A stretch of DNA of 64,000 bases, taken from assembly GCA_022750055.1 (NCBI GenBank), contig JAKIWL010000001.1, forward strand, positions 1-64,000, read 5' to 3'. The translations under genes were made by a program, and so were the position numbers. Below the pieces are notes generated by a model. The model worked only from the letters and a program-made list of their open reading frames with translations, was not told where the DNA came from and did not search any database. Positions 195 through 45,724 of the stretch are shown piece after piece (position 1 is the stretch's first letter; each line of letters begins with the position of its first letter). The stretch comes from Thermoplasmata archaeon. GTDB lineage: Archaea > Thermoplasmatota > Thermoplasmata > Lutacidiplasmatales > UBA184.

Positions 195-2057
195 TCAAGT
201 CGCTGTCGGTTGCGGTTCGGGCTGAGCCACTCGAGTACGATGGCGTAATCGGACCCCGAGCCCGCGCCGCAGCTGGTTCATGAGCACGCCGGGGAGCACC
301 GCTTCTCCGACGGCCAGGACCGCCCCATCTCGCACGAGCAGCACCGCATCGCCGGTTCGGATGGCCGGGTCAGCATGTGCGATCCCCGGGACGAACAGGT
401 CGCCCATCATGGGAACGTCCGGCCGGACCTCTACTTCCATAGGGTGGGCCGGGGCCATCCGGAGTGCCCCGGCCATCGTCAGCTGGAAGAGACCCCTCTC
501 CTCCCGCCATGTCGCGAGGTCCTTGCCGCTCGCGTCGGAGAGCCGCTGAAACCACGGCCGTCCGTGGAGTCGAACCGATGGCTGGAACAGAAGGTGCGCC
601 GCCTCCGGGCCGAACTGGAAGGAAGCGATCGACTCGAGCTCCTCCCGAACGATCGCGAGAGGACCGCCCTCGATCGGGGTCAACGGTGCGAGCGCCCTCT
701 CTACTGCATCGCGCAGCGTTCTCAGGGAGACGGCGGAAGTGGTCCGTCCGTCCATGAGGGTCCACTCGACCGAGTGGGTGCCCGTCGCGAAGTCGGCCAG
801 AAATTCGTACTCCTTCGGGTCGAGATGTACGACGACCGATCGATAGGCTCCGAACCGGAGGAGGTGGCCAAGGGCATCGGTGACGGCCGTCCGTTCCTCC
901 TCGTCCCATCGGTGCGTTACGGGAATATCGTAGTGGCGCGCGGGTGGGACATCCTCCAGCTCCCTAGGTACCACTCCAAGGGGCGAGGTGACCGACGCGA
1001 CGTGGAGCCTGGGCCGGTTCGGCACGCCCTCCAGGGCGTTCATCAATCTTCGGTGGGACGGGGAGTTCCGGTAGGGTTTGGTACGTGAGCAGGGGACCAC
1101 GAGCAGGACCTGTTTCGACGGAGGAGGACGGTAGCGCTCGCCCAGCCGCGCCCGGAACCGCAAGGCTTCAGGTCGGCGTTGCGATTCCTTCAGGATGTAG
1201 TTGTGGGCCAGGGCACTCGTCACGGGGCTGCGCTCCTCGAGCGCCCGGCCGAGGATCTCGTCTGCGTATCGCAACAGCTCAGCAAGGACCGGTTCGGACG
1301 TCAACCGCGCCTCGACGAGTTCCCGCAGCCGTTGGGCTCGCAGGGCGGACCGGACGAGACGCATCTCCCGTTCAAGCGACCATTCGACGTGCCCGCCGGT
1401 CTCGACGGCGGCTCCGGATCGACAGCTCGGGCAGTCGCACGCCCGCTCCGCCGCGGAGTCCACGACCGGGAAGGGGCCGAGTTCCGCCGTGGAGAAGACA
1501 CCCTCGGCGGCTTGGAACAGCGCTTCGGTCGAATCCACGAGGTCGACCCCAAGGTAGGTCAGCATCGCCAGACGGTGAGGAAGGGCAACCCGCGGGGTCC
1601 AGAGGAGCGGGTTGGCTCCCAGGCGTCGCCGGATCTCCTCGAGCGCTCGCACGAAGGGCTCGCCCTCCCGGAACAGGATCCGGGCGTTCCCGAGCACGAT
1701 CGCTTCGGGGTCCGCGTCCCGGAGCCGGACCCATTCCTCCTCGGCCAGCGGCCAATGCACGACCCACACTCCGGGGGATGCCTGGCTGGCTTCGCCTCGA
1801 CCCGCGCTGATCTCAGGGGTCGCGACCGGGAATTCGAGCCGCAGCGCGGTCGTTCCGTCCGACAGCTGGAGCGCCCGGCGGCCGGGAGCAGGATCGCCAG
1901 CGTCGGACAGGTTCAAACGAGCGGGACCTCCCGGCGGCGGAAAGGCAACGCCTCCGGTCCGGCTCCAGAGGACCGACGGGACCGGCAGGGAGATCGGCCC
2001 GATCGTGCCACGGCCGGCGACCGCGAGCCCTTCGAGCCGATCGTAGCTGCGCGTCAC
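195..2057 (-). CDS. arcS: Archaeosine synthase alpha subunit (ArcS/TgtA2)
   Basis: 620 aa. ArcS converts preQ0 at position 15 of archaeal tRNA toward archaeosine. The diagnostic PCSRTKPY motif, followed by SPSH, is at about residues 322-335 and is the core signature of this family. An N-terminal TGT-like half includes a CDCPSC cysteine cluster near residue 207. The last 80 or so residues look like a PUA RNA-binding domain. The start is GTG with a purine-rich GGAAGGGG stretch upstream. It is the last gene of a leftward group that may begin at UbiD. Its partner TgtA is not in the window. The family call is strong. I infer from the motif, not from activity data, that it acts as lyase or amidotransferase. 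Confidence 0.9.
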   Translation of the reverse strand: MTRSYDRLEGLAVAGRGTIGPISLPVPSVLWSRTGGVAFPPPGGPARLNLSDAGDPAPGRRALQLSDGTTALRLEFPVATPEISAGRGEASQASPGVWVVHWPLAEEEWVRLRDADPEAIVLGNARILFREGEPFVRALEEIRRRLGANPLLWTPRVALPHRLAMLTYLGVDLVDSTEALFQAAEGVFSTAELGPFPVVDSAAERACDCPSCRSGAAVETGGHVEWSLEREMRLVRSALRAQRLRELVEARLTSEPVLAELLRYADEILGRALEERSPVTSALAHNYILKESQRRPEALRFRARLGERYRPPPSKQVLLVVPCSRTKPYRNSPSHRRLMNALEGVPNRPRLHVASVTSPLGVVPRELEDVPPARHYDIPVTHRWDEEERTAVTDALGHLLRFGAYRSVVVHLDPKEYEFLADFATGTHSVEWTLMDGRTTSAVSLRTLRDAVERALAPLTPIEGGPLAIVREELESIASFQFGPEAAHLLFQPSVRLHGRPWFQRLSDASGKDLATWREERGLFQLTMAGALRMAPAHPMEVEVRPDVPMMGDLFVPGIAHADPAIRTGDAVLLVRDGAVLAVGEAVLPGVLMNQLRRGLGVRLRHRTRVAQPEPQPTAT

Positions 2058-2102
2058 TCTGGAGTTCCCCTTCCTCGGTGGAGTTCGGGCGGCCGCCCCT
2101 GG

Positions 2103-2450
2103 CTAGGCCGATCGCGCCGGGCCCTTGCGGCTCCGGCCGCCGCCGGTCGTGGGCGGGAAGGTTCCCTCCCACTGCGCGACGAGCGTCTCGCGGCGTTCGA
2201 CCCCGCCCTCGGACCGGCCTATCGATCGGATCAGCGGGTCGTGGGTCTCCCGGACCTCCCGGAGGAACGCGACCGGGCGCTCGCTCGCCTTCTCGAACCC
2301 GTAGACTCTGAGCTGGTGCAGGAAGCTCGACCGACCCCTCCACCCCATCCGACGGCGCACCACGGGGTTCAGATTTCGCTTCGCCATCCGCCAGTCGGCT
2401 GCCGGGGTCTTGTCGTCCCGCGCCGACAGCCCGATCATGATCTGCGTCAT
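2103..2450 (-). CDS. Small basic protein of unknown function
   Basis: 115 aa, arginine-rich, no family recognised. The central part (about residues 20-75) reads like a real soluble domain with mixed aromatic and charged residues. The C-terminal 20 residues are low-complexity Gly/Arg/Pro. It fills a 500-bp space between ubiA and arcS on the same strand. A TATA-like CATTTGAAC lies about 30 bp before the ATG and a GGGGAAGG stretch sits just upstream. No better frame exists on either strand. It could still be a chance frame in GC-rich DNA. Confidence 0.45.
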   Translation of the reverse strand: MTQIMIGLSARDDKTPAADWRMAKRNLNPVVRRRMGWRGRSSFLHQLRVYGFEKASERPVAFLREVRETHDPLIRSIGRSEGGVERRETLVAQWEGTFPPTTGGGRSRKGPARSA

Positions 2451-2561
2451 CGCGCCTTCCCCGGCCCGGGAACGAATCGACCGTTCAAATGGGCTTGGGA
2501 GACTTGGACACGCCCGTACGCGACGTGGATGGGCGCCGATTCCTCGGAGGAACCTCGGGTC

Positions 2562-3443
2562 TCACGGTAGAACCCACGCTGCAGGAAAGAATACGGCCAA
2601 CGCGACTCCCACCAGGAACACTCCCCCGAGGATCATGTGGGTCCGGAACGGCCCCACGACCCCCGATGGCGAGCGGATCAGTCTCCCATCCGCTCGGGCG
2701 GCGAGGAGGCCGATCGCGGCGAGGGCCACGAAGAACAGGCCCCCGAGGTGGGCGAGTACGCCGAACAGGGCAAACGAACCGAGGGAGAGCGCGTGCAACA
2801 CCGCCACGGCGCGGGACGACGTCCTAACCCCGAACTGCGCCGGGATCGACGAGAGGGCGAGCCGGAGGTCGGATTGGACATCTCCAAGGCTGTGGACCGT
2901 CTCGAAGGCGGTCCCCCACAGGAGCATCCCGAGGACCGCGGCCCACGCCTCCCACGGCAGCGTCCCCTGGACCGCGACAAACGCTGCCGCCGGCGTGATG
3001 GCTTCCACGAGGCCCAGATAGACCGTGGTGCCCCAGCCGAGCCGTTTGGTGTAGCTGTACCCCAGGATCAGAACGAGCGCCACCGGCGCGAGGAGGAGGG
3101 CGAGCGGATTCAGGAAGAACGCGGCGAGACCCAGGAGGAGGGCATTCGCGGCGACCAGGGCAAGCGCGAATCGCTCGGAGAAGCGCCCGGTGACGAGGGC
3201 ACGACCCTGAGTGCGGGGGTTCGCCCGGTCCTGCTCCCGGTCCGCCCATCGATTGAAACTGTGGCCCGCGTTGCGCGCAGCGACGAAGGCGATCACCACC
3301 AGGACGAACGTACGCAGGCTAGGGAGGCCCCCCGCGGCGACGAGGAGGAAGGCGAGCGCGAAGGAGAGGTTGAGGCCCAGGTTTTGGATCTCGAGGAAGC
3401 GTCCCAGCTCCGTGACCGGGGAGCGCTCCGTCGGTCCGTTCAC
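2562..3443 (-). CDS. ubiA: UbiA-family prenyltransferase
   Basis: 293 aa integral membrane protein, probably prenylating an aromatic acid in quinone biosynthesis. The first Asp-rich motif is NRWADREQD, with Arg where NDxxDxxxD usually has the second Asp. The second is the DVQSDLR region. YSYTKR lies between them. About eight hydrophobic helices are visible. I chose the GTG at 3443 because it overlaps the UbiD stop as GTGA, which couples the two genes; a longer reading would run into ubiD. A UbiA beside UbiD strongly suggests a prenylated 4-hydroxybenzoate-like route. Other UbiA members make archaeal lipids or heme, so the substrate is inferred from context. Confidence 0.87.
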   Translation of the reverse strand: MNGPTERSPVTELGRFLEIQNLGLNLSFALAFLLVAAGGLPSLRTFVLVVIAFVAARNAGHSFNRWADREQDRANPRTQGRALVTGRFSERFALALVAANALLLGLAAFFLNPLALLLAPVALVLILGYSYTKRLGWGTTVYLGLVEAITPAAAFVAVQGTLPWEAWAAVLGMLLWGTAFETVHSLGDVQSDLRLALSSIPAQFGVRTSSRAVAVLHALSLGSFALFGVLAHLGGLFFVALAAIGLLAARADGRLIRSPSGVVGPFRTHMILGGVFLVGVALAVFFPAAWVLP

Positions 3444-4921
3444 AGGGGGGAACGCTGGAGCAGTCGCTTCAAGACCGGGTCGGCGGCGACCAGCGCGTCC
3501 ACCCGACCGATCGCCTGCGGGTCGGAGCGGATCTCCTCGGGCCACGCCCTTGGAAAGCCGTCCTCGGGTCCCTTGCGGGTCGCGTCGATCCCGACCTTTG
3601 CCCCGAGGTTGGGGATCGGGTTGGAGATCGAGAGCTGGTCCACCGGTCCCTCGACCCGCTCGAGGTCGCGCCCGGGGTCGGCCTGGAGACCGACGCGGTA
3701 GAGGACCTCGGACAGGTCGTGGACGTTCACGTCGGCATCGACCACCACGACGTACCGGGTGAACATCAGCTGGCCGAGTCCCCAGAGGGCGTGCATCACC
3801 TTGCGGGGGTGCCCGGGGTAGCTCTTTCGGATCGAGATCACGGCGACGTTGATGAAGAGGCCCTCGACCGGCAGATTCATGTCAACGACCTCGGGGAGGA
3901 CGAGGCGAACCACCGGCAGGAAGATCCGCTCGACCGCTTTCCCGAGGACCGAGTCCTCCGTCGGCGGCTTGCCCGTTACGGTGCTCAGGTAGACCGGCTT
4001 TGCCCGGTGGGTGAGATGGGTCACGTGGAAGACAGGGAACGGCTCCGGCGCCGAGTAGTAGCCCGTGTGGTCGCCGAACGGTCCCTCGACGTGCCGCTCG
4101 GAGGGGTCGACGTACCCTTCGAGGACGATCTCCGCCTCGGCCGGAACCTCGAGGTCGACGCGTTGGGTGCGGACGAGCTCGAGCGGTTCGCCCCGAAGGA
4201 AGCTCGCGAAAACGAAGTTCGAGATCCCTTCCGGGACCGGCGCTAGCCCCGAGAGGATCGTCACCGGGTCGGCGCCGATCACCGCTGCCACCTCCATGCG
4301 GGTCCCGCGCGCGGCCCACTTCCGGTAGTTGTTCATCCCCACCCGGTGGACCTGGGCGTGGAAGCCGAGCGTGTCGGGCCCGTACTGTTGCAACCGGTAG
4401 ACCCCGGTGTGCGTCTCCCCAGTATCCGGGTCCTTCGTCACGACGACCGGGAAGGTGATCGTCCGGCCACCGTCGCCCGGCCAGCAGCGTAGGATCGGTA
4501 GGCTCGAGAGGTCGATGGTGTCTGTGGCGACCTCCTGGCACGGCCCGGTGCTCACTCGCTTGGGGCCGAGCGAGCGCACCGTCTGGAGCAAGTCGATCGT
4601 GCCGCCGAGGTCCCGCAGCGCGGCCCCGATCCCCGACGGTGGCTTGAGACGGACGAGGCGGCTGATCCGCTCCGCAGTCTCGGAGAATTCCTTGACCCCC
4701 AAGGCCCGGGCGATGCGCCGGGGGGAGGCGAGGACCCCCATCGCGACCGGCATCGACGCGCCGACGACGTTCTCGAAGAGGAGGGCCGGTCCATCCCGCG
4801 CCACGACCCGTTGGGTCAGCTCGGTGATGTCGAGGTCCGGTCGGACCGGGGCCCGCACCCGTAGGAGGTCGCCGGCGCTCTCGAGGTCTTCGAGGAACGC
4901 CCCCAGGGAGCGAAAAACCAT
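3440..4921 (-). CDS. ubiD: UbiD-family (de)carboxylase
   Basis: 493 aa, the normal length for UbiD. These enzymes use prenylated FMN to decarboxylate aromatic or alpha,beta-unsaturated acids. Family landmarks seen are the GVYRLQQYGPDTLGFH segment, EGPFGDHTGYYS with acidic and His residues near the active site, and the GIDATRKGPEDGFPR C-terminal region. The ATG at 4921 is about 25 bp from a TTTAAATA box, so a leaderless transcript is likely. It is first in the operon and overlaps ubiA by four bases. A UbiX flavin prenyltransferase is not in the window. Together with ubiA and the UbiE-like gene at 26.5 kb it suggests quinone synthesis. Confidence 0.92.
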   Translation of the reverse strand: MVFRSLGAFLEDLESAGDLLRVRAPVRPDLDITELTQRVVARDGPALLFENVVGASMPVAMGVLASPRRIARALGVKEFSETAERISRLVRLKPPSGIGAALRDLGGTIDLLQTVRSLGPKRVSTGPCQEVATDTIDLSSLPILRCWPGDGGRTITFPVVVTKDPDTGETHTGVYRLQQYGPDTLGFHAQVHRVGMNNYRKWAARGTRMEVAAVIGADPVTILSGLAPVPEGISNFVFASFLRGEPLELVRTQRVDLEVPAEAEIVLEGYVDPSERHVEGPFGDHTGYYSAPEPFPVFHVTHLTHRAKPVYLSTVTGKPPTEDSVLGKAVERIFLPVVRLVLPEVVDMNLPVEGLFINVAVISIRKSYPGHPRKVMHALWGLGQLMFTRYVVVVDADVNVHDLSEVLYRVGLQADPGRDLERVEGPVDQLSISNPIPNLGAKVGIDATRKGPEDGFPRAWPEEIRSDPQAIGRVDALVAADPVLKRLLQRSPL

Positions 4922-4945
4922 GGGCCGTCGACGATTCGACCGTCG

Positions 4946-4953
4946 TATTTAAA
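4946..4953. promoter_or_regulatory. TATA box between divergent ubiD and HTH regulator
   Basis: The sequence TATTTAAA reads as TTTAAATA on the other strand, so one AT-rich island sits between two divergent genes. On the minus strand it is 25-28 bp before the ubiD ATG, the spacing of a leaderless archaeal promoter. On the plus strand it would start transcription near 4975, giving the regulator gene a short leader of about 26 nt. Confidence 0.65.
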
Positions 4954-5000
4954 CCGCCCTAGCCGTCTTGGGGTTCACGGCGGAACCCGCGATTCGCCCG

Positions 5001-5726
5001 ATGCAGACGGTCACTCTGGAATTCGATTCGGACGACCTGCGAGCGCTCGGGATCATCCCCGGTGGCTTCTTCGAGCACTTCGAGGAGGTCGAGCTGCTCG
5101 AAACGCTGCGCCTCGAGAGTGGTTGGAGGCTCCAGCTCCTTCGGCTGAGAAGCCGCGGGGGGTTGCGTTCGGAGCGCGAGCTCGAGCGAGAGTCACGACG
5201 GATACGCCGTCTGTACGGCCTCGAAGGGTTCGAGCTCGTCGAACGGCGACCCCGAACCCGCGACTACATCCTGCTCGTCCGCCAAAAGAACCCGACCGTG
5301 CTGCGCGCGCTGATCGACCTCGCGGGCGGTGAGGTCTCCCCCATCGCACCCTTCCGACTGAGCGAGAAGACCTCCGTCGCGACCTTCCGGGCCGAGGAGG
5401 GCGCCCTTCGGCGCGTCCTCGCCCGACTACGGAAGGAGGAACTCCCGTTCCGGGTTCTGAGGACGTCGAGCCGGCCTTTTCTTCCCGGCCCCGGAGCCGC
5501 GACCCTCACGGACCGTCAACGTGACGTGCTGGGCCGCGCCTGGACGCTCGGCTTCTACTCCGTTCCGAGACGGATCACCCTCACCCAGCTCGCTCGGACC
5601 ACGGGGCAGAGCCCGCCCGCGCTCGGGAAGATGCTCCGGCGGGCGGAGCGCCACCTCGTGGCGCGCTTCCTTGCCTCGGAGCTTCCCTCCGGGTCCGTGG
5701 AGCTGATCGGAGACGGGAAAAGATAG
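5001..5726 (+). CDS. Bacterio-opsin-activator-type HTH transcription regulator
   Basis: 241 aa. The C-terminal 55 residues (about 175-230) match the HTH_10 domain of the bacterioopsin-activator family: LTDRQRDVLGRAWTLGFY, then LTQLARTTGQSPPALGKML, then a recognition helix ending ERHLVARFL. The N-terminal part looks like the BAT/GAF-like sensory half common in these archaeal regulators. I prefer the ATG at 5001 to an upstream TTG at 4968, since the predicted transcription start falls near 4975. Being divergent from ubiD-ubiA, it could regulate them, which is inference only. Confidence 0.8.
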   Translation: MQTVTLEFDSDDLRALGIIPGGFFEHFEEVELLETLRLESGWRLQLLRLRSRGGLRSERELERESRRIRRLYGLEGFELVERRPRTRDYILLVRQKNPTVLRALIDLAGGEVSPIAPFRLSEKTSVATFRAEEGALRRVLARLRKEELPFRVLRTSSRPFLPGPGAATLTDRQRDVLGRAWTLGFYSVPRRITLTQLARTTGQSPPALGKMLRRAERHLVARFLASELPSGSVELIGDGKR

Positions 5727-37518: not shown

Positions 37519-37700
37519 TCAGCCTCAAGGCATGCCGGACGTGCCGGTCGATCACCGACCAGACCAAGTGCCCGAAGTGCGGCGGCGAGGTCTCGCGCGA
37601 GTGGCAGGGCTACCTCGTGGTGATCGACCCCGACAAGTCCGAGATCGCCCGGAAGATGGGAATCCATGCGAGCGGTCGGTACGCGCTCCGGGTCAAGTGA
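37515..37700 (+). CDS. spt4: Transcription elongation factor Spt4
   Basis: 61 aa, normal for archaeal Spt4. It binds Spt5 at the RNA polymerase clamp. A four-Cys zinc site is formed by CRTC and CPKC, followed by GGEVSREWQGYLVVIDP and SEIARKMGI, both family-typical. The ATG overlaps the rpo7 stop. Spt5 is elsewhere. Confidence 0.93.
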   Translation: MISLKACRTCRSITDQTKCPKCGGEVSREWQGYLVVIDPDKSEIARKMGIHASGRYALRVK

Positions 37701-38913: not shown

Positions 38914-40548
38914 TCAGGACAATCCGACGATCCGGCCGTCCGGATCGAGGTCGATGTGCTCGGAGGCCGGACGGGCGGGCAGTCCGGGCATCGTCTCGAC
39001 CGATCCGAGCCGAACGACCGTGAACCCCGCCCCGGCCGAACGGTCGACGTGGCGGACTTGGACGACGAATCCTTCGGGCCGACCTCGCTTCTTCGGGTCG
39101 TCGGAGATCGAGAGCGGGGTCTTCGCCATGCACACCGGTCCCGAGACCTCCCCGAGCTCCTGGAGAACGGCGAGCTCCGCCAGGGCTTCCTCGGTCCATT
39201 CGGCCCCGGCCCCGCCGTAGATCGTTCGGACGATCGTCTCGACCTGCCGGACCGGGTCGGCGCCCGGGTCGATCGCGGGATGGCTGTGCCGCCCGAGGCC
39301 GGCCGCGGCCTCGACTGCGGCGGCCAGGGCGAGGGCACCCGCTCCCCCCTCGGAAAACAGCCGATGCTCCACGGCCTCGACGCCGCGTTCCCGACAGTAC
39401 GACCGGACCCGCTCGGTCTCCTGCGGGTCGTCCGAGGGATGTCGGTTGATCGCCACGACGACCGGGACCTGGAAGGTCTTCAGGATCGACAGGTGCTGCC
39501 CGAGGTTCGGGAGCCCACGCTCGAGGGCCGACCGGTCGGGATGCTCGGTCGACCCATCCGCCGCTCCGCCGTGATATCGAAGGCTAGGCAGGGTGACGAC
39601 CAGGACAGCCGCGTCGACGTCGACCCCGAGGATCGGGGTCACGATATCGACGAACTTCTCGCCGCCGAGCTCGGTCGCGAACCCCGCTTCGACGACGGTG
39701 TACTCCGCGCAGCCGAGCGCGAGCTCGATCGAGAGTCGGCTCGCGGTCCCGTGGGCGATGTTCGCGAACGGTCCGGCGTGGATGAGGACGGGATTCCCCT
39801 CGGAGGACTGGGCGACGTTCGGCTCGAGGGCATCGCGAAGCAGCGCCGCCATCGCCCCCGCCGCAGCGAGGTCGCCCGTCCGCACCGCCTTCCCGGATCG
39901 GGTCCGCCCGAGGAGCATCCTGCCGAGGCGCTGCTTCAGGTCGGAATAGTCCCGCGCGAGGGCCAGGACCGCCATGACCTCCGAGGCGGCCGTGATCAGG
40001 AATCGTCCGTCCCGGGCCGGCACACGGCCTCCGGGCTTCGACCAGGTTTGCACCTGCCGTAGGGCCCGGTCCTCCACATCGAGCGTGCGGGGCCACCCGG
40101 TTCGGGCCGGGTCGATGTCGAGCGCGTTCCCGTGGTACAGGTGGTTGTCGATGAGCGCGGACAGGAGGTTGTGGGCCGACGCCACCGCATGGATGTCCCC
40201 GGTGAACCCGAGGTTGATCGATGCAGAAGGCTCGACGGTGGACCGGCCTCCCCCGGTGGCCCCCCCCTTGACCCCGAAGACCGGCCCCATCGAGGGTTGG
40301 CGGAGGCAGGCGACCGACCTCCGGCCGTGACGGACCAATGCGTCCGCGAGCCCGATCGTCGTGACGGTCTTGCCCTCCCCGTGGCGGGTGGGGGTCATTC
40401 CGGTGACGAGGATGAGCTTCCCCCGTCGCGCGGAGCTGGCCCGGCCCCGAACGACCGAGACCGCCACTTTCCCAGCCGAGGCACCGGCCGGATGGATCTC
40501 CTCGCGCCCGAGACCGAGGGCCTCGCCGAGCTCCGCGACCGACCGCAT
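38914..40548 (-). CDS. fhs: Formate-tetrahydrofolate ligase
   Basis: 544 aa. It makes 10-formyl-THF from formate, ATP and THF. The P-loop region is TPTRHGEGKTVTTIGL (about 52-67). LRQPSMGPVFGVKGGATGGG and INLGFTGDIHAVASAHNLLS are family signatures. VVAINRHPSDDPQE and PVCMAKTPLSISDDP are also conserved. The enzyme is mostly bacterial and is patchy in archaea. It starts about 130 bp after the dienelactone hydrolase on the same strand. Confidence 0.95.
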   Translation of the reverse strand: MRSVAELGEALGLGREEIHPAGASAGKVAVSVVRGRASSARRGKLILVTGMTPTRHGEGKTVTTIGLADALVRHGRRSVACLRQPSMGPVFGVKGGATGGGRSTVEPSASINLGFTGDIHAVASAHNLLSALIDNHLYHGNALDIDPARTGWPRTLDVEDRALRQVQTWSKPGGRVPARDGRFLITAASEVMAVLALARDYSDLKQRLGRMLLGRTRSGKAVRTGDLAAAGAMAALLRDALEPNVAQSSEGNPVLIHAGPFANIAHGTASRLSIELALGCAEYTVVEAGFATELGGEKFVDIVTPILGVDVDAAVLVVTLPSLRYHGGAADGSTEHPDRSALERGLPNLGQHLSILKTFQVPVVVAINRHPSDDPQETERVRSYCRERGVEAVEHRLFSEGGAGALALAAAVEAAAGLGRHSHPAIDPGADPVRQVETIVRTIYGGAGAEWTEEALAELAVLQELGEVSGPVCMAKTPLSISDDPKKRGRPEGFVVQVRHVDRSAGAGFTVVRLGSVETMPGLPARPASEHIDLDPDGRIVGLS

Positions 40549-41604: not shown

Positions 41605-41678
41605 GGGCCCGTAGTATAGCTTGGATATCACAGAGGCCTCCGGAGCCTCGGACCCGGGTTCGAATCCCGGCGGGCCCG
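41605..41678 (+). tRNA. tRNA-Arg (anticodon CCG)
   Basis: Complete cloverleaf: acceptor GGGCCCG/CGGGCCC, anticodon stem GAGGC/GCCTC around CTCCGGA (anticodon CCG), T arm CCGGG-TTCGAAT-CCCGG and discriminator G at 41678. The last 20 bases of this gene recur, with two changes, near 43.7 kb. Confidence 0.95.
41659..41678 (+). repeat. attL-like tRNA-Arg 3' end
   Basis: TTCGAAT through the discriminator of tRNA-Arg matches 43686-43705 at 18 of 20 positions with no gap, including an identical final 12 bases. tRNA 3' ends are the usual target of archaeal tyrosine integrases. Confidence 0.45.
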
Positions 41679-42027
41679 CCTGTCGATGTGAACCATTCAC
41701 GAGCGAGATCGCCATTGTTGCCTCCGAGCGCGGCAGGTCCGGAGCCTCACTCGGTCACTTTGAGGCCCGCCGAGCGCCGCCGGGAGGGCGTCGGGTCGCA
41801 GACCCCGTCGAAGACGCTTGAAACGGCCATACGACGAGCAGAATCCCTCGTATTGCCTCCCGGAGGAGGGCGGGATCGCGATCATACCCGAACCAGAGGG
41901 AGGGGATCGAGCGCATCGGCAGGTGCGCCGCGCCGACGATCTCCGAGCGCCTCACCGACGGTCGGGATCGACCGTCTGAGCCACCACGCTCCCGGAATGG
42001 TCCGGGCGCAAGGACTCCTCTCCTGCC
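41679..42027. other. Gene-free stretch after tRNA-Arg
   Basis: No complete gene. On the minus strand, 41755-41960 encodes a run with several Trp, Phe and Leu residues (AAHLPMRS, LWFGYDRDP, GILLVVWPF) that reads more like the end of a real protein than like noise. It has no start and could be a decayed gene. I recognise no family. Confidence 0.3.
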
Positions 42028-42783
42028 ATGGGAACCTTCAAGAGCGGAGGAATCAACGATGCCCTGCACGGTCGGGGATCGATCAAGATGACCGAGGACA
42101 AGCCCATGCGGATCATCGTCCATCCGAACGGACCGTATCGGGTCCTGGGAGGTGTTCCGCTCGCCGTCCAGACGATCACACCGAACCAGGAGGGGGAATC
42201 TTGGGATTGGGTCCAAGGGCGGTCGTTCCACGTCGGACCGGAGTATTTCCTTTGTCGTTGCGGCCGGTCCTCCAACAAGCCGTTTTGTGATAACAGTCAT
42301 CTCTCGGCTGGGTTCGTGGGGGCCGAGACCGCTTCCCGGCGTCCGATCGAGCGGCAGTCCGAGCACCTCGACGGGCCCACCCATGTGCTGAGCGATGCCG
42401 AGGGCCTATGCGCCTTCGCCCGTTTCTGTGACCCGGGGGGCAAGATCTGGGCTCTCATCGGGCAGACCGACCAGCCCGAAGTCCGAAAGCTGGTAGTCCG
42501 GGAGGCCTCCCATTGTCCTGCTGGACGCCTCGTCCTCCGAGAGAAGGCGACCGGGAAGGTGGTCGAGCCCGAGCTACCGCCGTCGATCGGTTTGGTCGAG
42601 GATCCGGCGCTGCACTGTAGCGGGCCGCTCTGGGTTCGCGGGGGCATCCCGGTCGAATCCTCCAACGGGGTTCCGTACGAGGTGCGCAACCGGCTGACGC
42701 TGTGCCGATGCGGCGTCTCCACCAACATGCCGTTCTGTAACGGCAGCCACGCGTCCATCCGATTCCAAGACGGGCTGGTCTAA
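42028..42783 (+). CDS. Double-CDGSH iron-sulfur protein with central Fer4_19-like domain
   Basis: 251 aa. Two CDGSH-type 2Fe-2S sites are seen: CRCGRSSNKPFCDNSH (about 75-90) and CRCGVSTNMPFCNGSH (about 225-240). Each keeps the three Cys and one His ligands. Between them, GLCAFARFCDPGGKIW and HCPAGRLVLRE match a divergent Fer4_19-type domain. Such fusions occur in bacteria and archaea, with unknown roles in redox or Fe-S transfer. Start may be 42028 or 42088 (MTEDKPM). It uses more TGT and TTT codons than its neighbours, consistent with transfer. Confidence 0.85.
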   Translation: MGTFKSGGINDALHGRGSIKMTEDKPMRIIVHPNGPYRVLGGVPLAVQTITPNQEGESWDWVQGRSFHVGPEYFLCRCGRSSNKPFCDNSHLSAGFVGAETASRRPIERQSEHLDGPTHVLSDAEGLCAFARFCDPGGKIWALIGQTDQPEVRKLVVREASHCPAGRLVLREKATGKVVEPELPPSIGLVEDPALHCSGPLWVRGGIPVESSNGVPYEVRNRLTLCRCGVSTNMPFCNGSHASIRFQDGLV

Positions 42784-42890
42784 GGTTCGCCGCCCGCTCC
42801 GCCGGTCAGGGCCGGTACGCGGACGACGGGGTGAAACCCTCCGGATCCTGCGGCCGACTCACCGCCCTTCCGAGAACGTCAGGCGGTGGT

Positions 42891-43607
42891 TCACGCCGAT
42901 CGACCCGGGGCCGAAGCGAGAAGGACTCGAGTCCCAGCCTTCGCGCGAAGCGATACCTCTGCGACGCCTTCGAGCAACGCGCCGGCACCCGCGTCGACGA
43001 GCTGATCGCTGATCCATGCGGTCCCCTCAAATACATAGGCGACCGCCCTCCGCTCTCGACCCACCCGGCAAACGCACTGACCCGCGGCGCCAAACTCAAA
43101 CTCGACGCAGTCGAGCCCGGAGCCCGACGCGACCGCCCCACCCCGTCCGACCAGATGGCGTTCGGTGCACCCTTCCCCGGCCCGCGTTGGAACCGGTCCG
43201 CGCGCGCGCTGGACGAGATGCGGGGGGCCACCGGCCGTCGGGGGGCATTGAACCGTGACGGAGAGCCAGCGAGCTCGCGGTGGCGTCTTCGCCGTCAGAT
43301 TGTGATGGCCCACCAGGCGAGCCGTCAGCAGCGAGACCATTCCCGCTTCGAGCAGGGACGTGACCCCTTCGTCATCCTCGTGTTCCACCCGCCCCTCGAT
43401 GACGTAGTTCAGGACCTCTTCCGCTCGATGGTCGTGACCCTCGCTGACTCCCACCTGCCGACTGATGGTGGTTTCCGCCACGCGGACGAACGGCATCCAG
43501 GGACCTTGGTTAGGGGACGGAAACAGGGTGCGGCCCGAAACATCGTCGAGGTCCATTTGGCTCGACACGACCCTCAGTTCTCGCGGCGACCCTCCGGAAT
43601 GTGCCAT
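42891..43607 (-). CDS. Pirin-like cupin protein
   Basis: 238 aa. The N-terminal cupin has GHDHRAEEVLNYVIEGRVEHEDDEG, close to the pirin HxHRGxE...GEVEHxD pattern, and a second metal-site-like HH in LVGHHNLTAK. The C-terminal cupin (about 150-235) is degenerate. Pirins bind one metal and include quercetinases and regulators. It faces the CDGSH gene tail to tail inside the tRNA-Arg-flanked segment. Confidence 0.72.
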   Translation of the reverse strand: MAHSGGSPRELRVVSSQMDLDDVSGRTLFPSPNQGPWMPFVRVAETTISRQVGVSEGHDHRAEEVLNYVIEGRVEHEDDEGVTSLLEAGMVSLLTARLVGHHNLTAKTPPRARWLSVTVQCPPTAGGPPHLVQRARGPVPTRAGEGCTERHLVGRGGAVASGSGLDCVEFEFGAAGQCVCRVGRERRAVAYVFEGTAWISDQLVDAGAGALLEGVAEVSLRAKAGTRVLLASAPGRSA

Positions 43608-43685
43608 GGAATCTGCGCTCCTCAGAAGGGAACTGGGAGTTTGAACCCCACTTGACGCTTATCGATTCCGTCCCATCCCGGGGCA

Positions 43686-43705
43686 TTCGAAATCCGGCGG
43701 GCCCG
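43686..43705 (+). repeat. attR-like copy of tRNA-Arg 3' end
   Basis: TTCGAAATCCGGCGGGCCCG differs from the tRNA-Arg 3' end only at its seventh and eighth bases and stops exactly at the discriminator base. No acceptor 5' half or anticodon arm lies next to it, so it is not a second tRNA. It could mark the far end of an integrated segment. Confidence 0.4.
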
Positions 43706-43746
43706 TCGCGTATCGCTGAACCACCGCCGGGGGCTCGAGCGCCGTA

Positions 43747-44745
43747 ATGAGTTCGACGCGGTATCGTAGGTGCATGCGCATTTCCCCACGGGTCCGAACC
43801 TGGTTGACGCAGCCCGCGGCCGATCCGAGCGTTCGGTCACGATTCTGGACCGAGGTGGAGGGGCGACCGCCTGGGGAGGCCCGTGTGGTTGCAGCCCGCC
43901 GGTCGATCGGCCGCACCGGATGGGCCGCGGGGTTGCTCCGGCACCAGTTTCGGGATGGCCATTGGGCTTCGCCCGGGTCCTCCGATGAGGAGCTCTACCG
44001 GCCAAAGTACCTCGCGACGAACTGGCGGGCCATCGTGCTCGCCGAGCTCGGCATGACCCGGACGGATCGGCGGATCCGACGCACCGCCGAGCTCATCCTG
44101 CGCCGATGGACCGGACGTGGGGCGGACCTATTGGGCGGCCCGGACGGTGAGATCTGCATCACCGGCAACGCGGCGCGATCCCTGATACGGTTCGGCTACC
44201 TCGACCACCCGGTCGTCCAGCGTTCCCTCGCCTGGATCGTCCGAACTCAGAAGTCGGACGGCGGGTGGCACTGCTTCCGCTCCCGTACCGGGTCGTTGGA
44301 TTGTTGGGAAGGACTCGCCGCGTTCGCGGAGATCCCTCCGGAGGCGCGTGACGCGGCGGTTCGTCGATCCCTCGAACGGGGGGCGGAGTTCTACTTGCGC
44401 CGCCATCTGATGAACGAGGGCCGGGTCCGGTATCCCCCCTGGTTCCGGATCCACTACCCCGTCCACTACTACTACGATCTGCTCGTCGGACTCCGAGTCC
44501 TGACCCGCCTCGGATATGGGTCCGATCGCCGCCTGCGGCCGGCCCTTCGCTGGCTCCTCGGCAAGCGGCGGAGGGATGGTACGTGGGCGATCGACGCCGA
44601 CCATCCGGACCTGGACCCTCGACATGGAGGGTACGTCTTTGACGAAGGACCCGTCTGGCCCCTGCGTCTGGAACCCCCGGACGAGCCGAGTCGTTGGGCG
44701 ACCGTCGAGGCGCTCTCCGTGCTGGCCCGAGCGGAAGCGATGTGA
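43747..44745 (+). CDS. Alpha/alpha-toroid (prenyltransferase/squalene-cyclase-like) protein
   Basis: 332 aa. Repeats of helix pairs with QW-like segments (TQKSDGGWHCF at about 178, KRRRDGTWAID at about 278) indicate the alpha/alpha barrel of terpene cyclases and protein prenyltransferase beta subunits. The DXDD acid motif of squalene-hopene cyclase is absent and the protein is half its length, so cyclase activity is unlikely. An ATG at 43774 is an alternative start. Role unknown. Confidence 0.65.
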   Translation: MSSTRYRRCMRISPRVRTWLTQPAADPSVRSRFWTEVEGRPPGEARVVAARRSIGRTGWAAGLLRHQFRDGHWASPGSSDEELYRPKYLATNWRAIVLAELGMTRTDRRIRRTAELILRRWTGRGADLLGGPDGEICITGNAARSLIRFGYLDHPVVQRSLAWIVRTQKSDGGWHCFRSRTGSLDCWEGLAAFAEIPPEARDAAVRRSLERGAEFYLRRHLMNEGRVRYPPWFRIHYPVHYYYDLLVGLRVLTRLGYGSDRRLRPALRWLLGKRRRDGTWAIDADHPDLDPRHGGYVFDEGPVWPLRLEPPDEPSRWATVEALSVLARAEAM

Positions 44746-44974
44746 GTTCTCGGAAGCGGTCCCAAGGCGGGACTCTTGGGGACCCCCCGGCGGAGCCTAC
44801 CGAAGGCGCGACTCCCGGTGGGCCGTGGGCCCATTCGCCGCCTCGGAGTCCCTCTGGCTCCCGGCGGAAAGGGATGGATCAATCGGTTCGTCCAGGCCCC
44901 TCGCATCGGGGCGATGCTGCCCGTGGACCTAAACGCTTACAACCCCCACGCCGCCTGAATCGTTCTCGTTTCGC

Positions 44975-45724
44975 ATGGCGCCTTCGGAGGTCGGCACGCT
45001 CTATCTCGGACCGCTCCTCGGGGTCATCTTCGACCTCGACGGCACGCTCGTGGAGAGCGCCCACGATTACCTGAGGATGCGGCGGGAGATCATTCGCATC
45101 GCCGAGGCGCACGGCGTGATGCCCGGTCACCTTTCGGCCCGCGAGCCGATCCCCAAGATCATGGATTCGGCGCTGTCCGAGCTCTCCCTCGGGGGGCTCC
45201 CGGAAGGCGACCGGTTCCGGTTCGAGAGCGAAGCGAACGACACCGTCGACCGGATCGAGCTCGAGGCGCTCCCGCGGACGCGCGCGCAGCCCGGAGCCAT
45301 TCCCCTTCTGCGTTCGCTGACCGGTCGGGGATTCCGTCTCGGCATCCTCACGCGCAGTTCGGAGGTCTTCTGCCGCGCCGCCCTCCAGAAGACCGGATTG
45401 AAGGAGTTCTTCCCGTACTTGCGCACGCGCAGTTCTCCCGGCCCCGCCAAGCCCTCCCCGGAGTCGCTCCTGTTGCTCCTGAAGGAAATGGGCGTCCCCC
45501 TCGACCGGGCGGTCTTCGTCGGGGATCATCCGTTCGATGGCGAGTGCGCGACCCGAGCGCGCGTGCGATTCCTCGGCGTCACCCCACCCGGCCCGCCGGA
45601 GTCTGACCTTTCGGAACGGCTGAAGAAAGCGGGCGCGCTCGCAGTGGCCGCGAACCTCGAGGGGATCGGCCGGGTCCTTGGCTTGGGCGCCAACGAGCTG
45701 CCCGTGCCCCGCGTAGGTAGCTAA
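44975..45724 (+). CDS. HAD-family phosphatase
   Basis: 249 aa. Motif I VIFDLDGTLVES holds the nucleophilic Asp, motif II is LGILTRSS, motif III Lys lies in SSPGPAKPSPES, and motif IV is VFVGDHPFDGECA. A helical cap lies between motifs I and II. This is the phosphoglycolate-phosphatase-like subclass. Substrate not determined. The 229 bp before it hold only a possible CTTACAA promoter element. Confidence 0.87.
   Translation: MAPSEVGTLYLGPLLGVIFDLDGTLVESAHDYLRMRREIIRIAEAHGVMPGHLSAREPIPKIMDSALSELSLGGLPEGDRFRFESEANDTVDRIELEALPRTRAQPGAIPLLRSLTGRGFRLGILTRSSEVFCRAALQKTGLKEFFPYLRTRSSPGPAKPSPESLLLLLKEMGVPLDRAVFVGDHPFDGECATRARVRFLGVTPPGPPESDLSERLKKAGALAVAANLEGIGRVLGLGANELPVPRVGS

Follow-up and report, generated by a model that had tools for sequence, protein, structure and literature searches.

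The 2,007-bp segment that lies behind tRNA-Arg(CCG) at positions 41679-43685 of the 64,000-nucleotide stretch analysed here (the window) is likely to derive from an old insertion into the 3' terminus of this tRNA gene, left as an integrase-less scar in an additive island of the genus. In the mechanism that we propose, a tyrosine recombinase would recombine a circular DNA molecule with the last 20 bases of the tRNA gene; the tail brought in on the circle would restore the tRNA end, and the original tail, now displaced, would form the distal core at 43686-43705. In related genomes, core-bounded units of 0.65-5.2 kb, carrying toxin-antitoxin pairs or single enzymes, are stacked behind the tRNA. 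In the window a single such unit is left, whose kept cargo is a CDGSH iron-sulfur protein and a pirin, and since its distal core is worn, it is probably mobile no longer.

The tRNA-Arg(CCG) gene occupies 41605-41678 on the plus strand. ARAGORN calls it at 41605-41680, and its end was taken from the sequence, the acceptor stem placing the discriminator base at 41678. Its last 20 bases (41659-41678, plus strand), which read TTCGAATCCCGGCGGGCCCG, constitute the attachment core, and a degenerate copy on the same strand at 43686-43705, reading TTCGAAATCCGGCGGGCCCG, forms the distal core of the segment. The preliminary description of the window had reported this repeat with 18 identities out of 20, no gap and an exact match over the final 12 bases; sequence comparison reproduces all of these figures, and the observation as a whole is confirmed. 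On both strands of the window, no other match to the tail was found at up to four mismatches, and at the same threshold the tRNA-Val and tRNA-Leu genes of the window have no tail copies.

That the 3' end of tRNA-Arg(CCG) acts as an attachment site had been proposed on general grounds, and this site proves to be much used in the genus. Our sample comprised 61 tRNA-Arg(CCG) loci, including the window and the relative AcS5-34 (L003), with some genomes giving two loci; 48 of the 61 have at least 1.5 kb of downstream sequence. Ten extra copies of the core with at most two mismatches occur at eight loci, the window's being one of the ten, and every one of them lies downstream and on the tRNA strand, the side and strand expected of an insertion. 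At the same threshold there are no copies downstream on the opposite strand or upstream on either strand of the 61 loci (sequence scanned, 363,580 and 361,724 bases). Allowing three mismatches gives 13 copies downstream and 1 upstream on the tRNA strand, and 1 downstream and 0 upstream on the opposite strand. Some contigs without an intact tRNA carry more cores, with seven in 8 kb on G017:C125 (L234) and four on G009:C187 (L233). On the minus strand of L233 near 7296, and in L234 near 2453, the sequence before a core resembles the rest of tRNA-Arg, by about 80% over the full gene in G009:C187, and some arrays seem, by this resemblance, to hold decayed whole tRNA copies.

Among the relatives compared, no empty site for the window segment was found. 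One candidate, tRNA-Arg directly before a beta-CASP RNase gene, was set aside: in L365, L265 and L274 a KH/beta-CASP RNase gene (Pfam) begins about 25 bases after tRNA-Arg, and this arrangement may be a deletion, since the left side of the gene is occupied by other conserved sequence in G014 and G017. A second copy of the beta-CASP gene, 70-74% identical, is present in a few genomes. In addition, G092 (L353 and L365) has two versions, at 97% and 91% to G017, and this MAG may mix two strains.

The segment opens with a leader (41679-42087) that has no recognisable gene and no trace of a methylase-type arm or an integrase. It is followed by a double zf-CDGSH protein (42088-42783, plus strand; PF09360, 2.7e-35), with an additional weak match to Fer4_19 below the cut-off of that model, and by a pirin-like bicupin protein (42891-43607, minus strand; PF02678, 3.8e-08). 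The Pfam matches thus agree with the two products that the preliminary description had named. The CDGSH reading frame opens at 42028 and homology begins near 42088, so comparison with relatives suggests the latter position as the start of the gene. Between the window and L003, dN/dS is 0.10 for the CDGSH gene (231 codons) and 0.25 for the pirin gene (199 codons), and therefore both genes are kept under purifying selection. Less GC-rich codons had also been noted for the CDGSH gene, and this holds to a slight degree: against 48 window genes predicted with a custom script, GC3 is 0.78 for CDGSH (29th percentile) and 0.72 for pirin (17th percentile), and the codon score of both is at the 6th percentile, so their composition is mildly unusual and no more.

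The decayed-looking minus-strand frame mentioned in the same description is present in the leader (41697-41885, 62 aa). Pfam gives nothing for it at E<=0.1, and it is not clearly similar to any of the array, integrase or methylase proteins compared, for which the best alignment covers 33 aa with an E of 0.003, the search being very small. Similarly, a search of the leader with protein profiles for an integrase remnant gave no trace in the segment, and within 41679-42090 neither a methylase arm nor any array protein, integrase included, could be detected. The assembly of the window genome (1.52 Mb, 5 contigs) contains one PF00589 match, of a strength seen once in most genomes of the genus, which we take to be Xer; it has no match to the array integrase described below, an absence that is expected if the segment is a relic.

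The nearest named relatives of the CDGSH protein are from Thermoplasmata MAGs, including Candidatus Lutacidiplasma silvani, and a strong match (E below 1e-30) exists in 11 of 25 genus genomes compared. Among the 36 genome_contigs loci listed, which come from several phyla, the gene lies beside tRNA-Arg in L003 alone, and the position of the other homologues away from tRNA-Arg counts against an insertion. A closer pirin (59%) is found in G043, in a stretch (L180) without any core of 14/20 or better.

AcS5-34 (L003, JAKIWH010000065.1) carries the pair in the order tRNA-Arg, PIN-domain gene, CDGSH and pirin, with both genes of the pair oriented as in the window and nucleotide identities of 84.8% for CDGSH and 75.9% for pirin. 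The backbone of the left flank is 73.8% identical, which is close to the value for pirin, and the pair could therefore have been inherited by both lineages since their split. The blastn homology stops at window position 43671 (L003 6078), 15 bases short of the copy, and a gapped alignment places an eroded CGGGCCCGTTGCG of L003 opposite the end of the window copy; beyond this eroded repeat, nothing convincing aligns with the window. Relatives with both genes in place and no second repeat had been named as the finding that would speak against an integrated segment. L003 goes halfway towards this case, with the pair present and its second repeat eroded. Two features of this locus count against the insertion reading: its distal core is only partly recognisable, and the PIN-domain gene between the tRNA and CDGSH has no adjoining core of 14/20 or better.

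Left of tRNA-Arg(CCG), a homologue of the window gene at 37666 is present in 31 of 59 loci, the genes before it often being in the same order as in the window, and it is absent from L252, L269, L275 and L356, four loci that each have over 5 kb of sequence on that side. The window also has a formate-tetrahydrofolate-ligase-like gene (38914-40548, named by eye) left of tRNA-Arg; homologues of it lie right of tRNA-Arg in L377 and L375. The right neighbour, outside the segment, is a squalene-hopene-cyclase-like protein (43747-44745, plus strand; PF13243, 3.9e-06), a 61% homologue of which stands immediately to the right of the final core in G014 (L232). Genes like that at window 43747-44745 are found again in L386, L387 and L388, a few kb or less from tyrosine integrases.

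The genes to the right also bear on a different origin of the repeat. Among them, the HAD gene (window 44975-45724) is found right of the tRNA elsewhere only in G023 (L380), where, as in the window (43706-45724), it shares this side of tRNA-Arg with a thioredoxin-reductase-like gene and carA. In eight genomes, a count covering those with HAD and tRNA-Arg placed on one contig, HAD is inverted and stands roughly 45-124 kb upstream of the tRNA. This gene order points to a large inversion that ended at tRNA-Arg in the window and in G023. The core copy could then be a by-product of the inversion that brought the HAD-carA block to tRNA-Arg, with a piece of the tail duplicated or moved at the breakpoint and two genes trapped between. 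We consider this explanation improbable: G024 (L253) has HAD 84 kb upstream and yet has a core copy downstream of the tRNA; L231, L232, L351, L354 and L283 have copies, with HAD absent from the downstream stretch examined; and the gene pair of L003 stands at tRNA-Arg with a different right flank.

Another explanation would be a chance match in GC-rich DNA, the CDGSH and pirin genes being ordinary neighbours of the tRNA. The tail is indeed GC-rich, and in 64-kb sequences simulated with a first-order Markov model of the window, matches of 16/20 arise at a rate of 0.87, and those of 17/20 at 0.13, per 64 kb. However, an 18/20 match appeared in none of 30 such sequences, and the reversed tail pattern, at up to two mismatches on both strands, gave no match in any of 78 genus genomes. 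The forward pattern matches in 74 of these 78, and the listed matches mostly correspond to this tRNA or to a tRNA-Lys whose tail is similar. Chance has very little probability left and is rejected on the basis of the simulation, the reversed-pattern control and the strict bias in side and strand.

An insertion at the tRNA end, the reading that we prefer, has parallels throughout the genus, where the tRNA-Arg(CCG) site takes different cassettes in different relatives and the cassettes are bounded by tRNA direct repeats. When the 300 bases left of the core were compared among 41 sites, 13 similar pairs were obtained, and in none of the 13 were the 300 bases on the right similar at E 1e-4. In nine of these pairs the similarity reaches within 10 bases of the core, although one of the nine (L234:2453 with L372) merely reflects resemblance to the tRNA itself. 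Left arms are shared, for example, by L234:384 and L353:949 (98.7%), L233:843 and L353:2903 (96%), L234:8135 and L351:4030 (93%), and L246:773 and L247:478 (97%). The arms of the window's sites match no other site at E 1e-4, which counts against the insertion reading.

Some units can be followed from core to core among different neighbours. The glyoxalase-VapBC unit at 6434-8135 of L234, sixth in its array, matches the tRNA-adjacent units of L351 and L231 at 87% and 84%, respectively, over 1.7 kb. Moreover, L263 has next to its tRNA the unit that stands second in L351 (92% over 2,151 bases, starting 48 bases past the core and running to the end of the L263 contig), and therefore L263 is without the first 1.7-kb cassette. 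Similar pairs with and without a cassette are L354/L266 and L246/L370, in which homology starts 35-191 bases past the core. Thus, loci that differ by the presence of a cassette exist at tRNA-Arg(CCG) for cassettes other than that of the window. The VapBC unit occurs in four genomes (L231, L234, L351 and L360) at different array positions, together with the glyoxalase gene in L234, L351 and L360.

In total, 27 units are bounded by cores with at most three mismatches, the window's included, and 18 of them have at most two at both ends; ends with three mismatches may include chance cores. Their median length is 1,742 bases (range 650-5,184). An integrase trace is present in two units, and 25, that of the window among them, show none in a search with nine integrase queries, one of which itself comes from such a unit. 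Toxin-antitoxin proteins were found in 14 of the 27 units, whereas the 353,836 bases of sequence upstream of the tRNAs have one such place; this contrast is only indicative, given that most seeds were drawn from the units themselves or from their contigs, with one from L003, and that the units are in part related to one another. The Pfam names in the tested toxin-antitoxin proteins are PIN, HepT-like, nucleotidyltransferase and MazE, and further genes in or beside units include short-chain dehydrogenase, RibD_C, glyoxalase, PEBP, CYTH, GNAT, ABC transporter and DinB. We infer that the window segment arrived as these other units did, its recombinase having acted from elsewhere or been lost.

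The ends of the units carry traces of two proteins. To the right of many cores, about 300 bases correspond to the beginning of an N6/N4 DNA methylase (PF01555), which in L366 is open to the contig end and elsewhere is found in shorter pieces; in L282, a 339-residue methylase match adjoins tRNA-Arg, interrupted by one stop. A model of this arm, trained on 15 of its own hits and applied to loci mostly chosen for a tRNA or core, gave 24 hits, of which 22 abut a core, one runs past the end of its contig and one lies inside the methylase gene of L366. It has no hit in the window segment, and the possibility that this segment is the remnant of a methylase-type element is unsupported, the arm being absent. 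At the other end, the C-terminus of a tyrosine integrase lies left of one core in L233 (PF00589, 9.9e-09), and a second remnant is present in L234. Other genomes of the genus have relatives of this array integrase (48-60% identity), and full-length integrases of the array type are found in G021:C20 and G058:C15.

Integrase ends adjoin tRNA-tail copies at other loci as well. Of 12 loci with a member of the array-integrase family, nine have a tRNA or a copy of a tRNA tail after the integrase, the tails being named by eye unless they are ARAGORN genes. L426 and L434 are the arrays themselves; L431, L432 and L433 have tRNA-Gln tails; L427 has an intact tRNA-Gln on the other strand; L435 has an intact tRNA-Thr; and L428 and L429 have another tRNA-like tail. 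The remaining three loci (L430, L436 and L437) have no tRNA or tail copy after the integrase. A class-2 arm (TCCCGTCAGAGAAAA...) is present right of the core at L233, L234, L238, L354 and L366. Compared by eye with L428 and L429, it resembles, in reverse complement, the sequence ahead of their tRNA-like tail, which would suit an element with inverted arms at its two ends. Among viral_contigs, the exact 21-base core pattern has no hits and the array helicase-like protein no relatives; the methylase has 10, at 33-46% identity.

One locus joins the two proteins. In L430 (G088:C61, 448-1743), tRNA-Lys(CTT) is directly followed by the same methylase-type arm as tRNA-Arg, and just right of this tRNA an open frame of 367 residues starts as methylase and finishes as integrase (PF00589, 2.5e-10; PF01555, 2.2e-05, just below the cut-off). 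This fused frame therefore ties both ends to one element whose middle has been lost. Together with the methylase starts and integrase ends, it favours the view that the units are whole elements decayed by internal deletion. The recurrence of units with different neighbours, mostly with no integrase, fits movement in trans or deletion between cores. Thus, the earlier proposal of a 2-kb remnant of an integrated element whose integrase was lost finds partial support: the attachment site is a used one, the copy is on the expected side and strand, and the homology with L003 ends at the copy, but the segment has no integrase trace and may be either the remnant of a full element or a small cassette moved in trans. 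The lack of an integrase or methylase remnant, the lack of an empty site and the mild composition all count against the insertion reading.

It is tempting to go further and view the tRNA-Arg(CCG) locus as an archaeal capture system, superintegron-like without being an integron. In this scenario, cassettes that carry one or two genes and no integrase, and that toxin-antitoxin pairs keep stable, would be inserted, removed and reordered at the 20-base cores by a tyrosine recombinase encoded elsewhere, which would also serve other tRNA tails. We hold this to be doubtful, and have lowered our estimate of it because the fused frame of L430 favours internal deletion of whole elements. That the locus is a true integron, with an integron integrase moving cassettes at attC sites, is barely credible: the small units, the many toxin-antitoxin pairs and the single direction of all cores would suit one, but the junction is a tRNA tail, and we reject membership because the recombinases scanned are far below the TIGR02249 cut-off, with 14 of 15 genus tyrosine recombinases scoring 20-43 bits (cut-off 265) and the remaining one, L405, matching nothing in the NCBIfam scan.

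An old insertion within a site of repeated use remains our preferred reading of the segment. Comparison with relatives thus links a worn 20-base repeat next to a tRNA with an insertion site in frequent use in a group of uncultured archaea. At sites of this kind, small toxin-antitoxin cassettes can accumulate in integron-like rows, apparently with no integron integrase involved, and the presence of such rows in an archaeal genus is the interesting side of these results. The locus, its core sequence and a candidate recombinase family are now defined for testing cassette capture in archaea.

Islands anchored at tRNAs are known from bacteria and tRNA insertions from archaea; the titles and abstracts of open PubMed Central articles (subscription literature being outside this scope) contain no description of this tRNA-Arg array. 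PYG1 of Pyrococcus yayanosii, inserted at tRNA-Gln, spans about 21.4 kb with 44-bp repeats (PMC9897764). Like PYG1, the window segment has an intact tRNA at one end and a partial tRNA copy at the other; in contrast, it is 2 kb long, with a 20-base repeat and no integrase. Tycheposons (4-200 kbp, as described in PMC10872708) similarly hold cargo bordered by a tRNA, with a tyrosine recombinase, whereas the units described here are small and mostly without a recombinase trace. Integrons, archaeal ones included, consist of small cassettes in arrays, each acquired or lost as a whole (PMC9668308), and toxin-antitoxin genes are frequent in large bacterial arrays, making up 12% of Alteromonas integron genes (PMC4119200). 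Our arrays share the small cassettes behaving as units and the toxin-antitoxin genes, but there is no IntI-class integrase among the recombinases scanned and the site is a tRNA tail. Finally, additive flexible genomic islands with tRNA direct repeats are reported from Ca. Actinomarinales (PMC7771536), from Alteromonas (fGI1; PMC4119200) and from Methylophilaceae, where fGI-2 has repeats of the last 20 nt of tRNA-Lys (PMC10872708). As in these bacterial islands, a conserved tRNA gains cassettes, repeats of the tRNA end mark them and the content varies among relatives. Unlike them, the island described here belongs to an archaeal genus and to tRNA-Arg(CCG), has units of a median 1.7 kb, 14 of 27 with toxin-antitoxin proteins, reaches up to seven cores in 8 kb, and shows element ends of methylase and tyrosine-integrase type.
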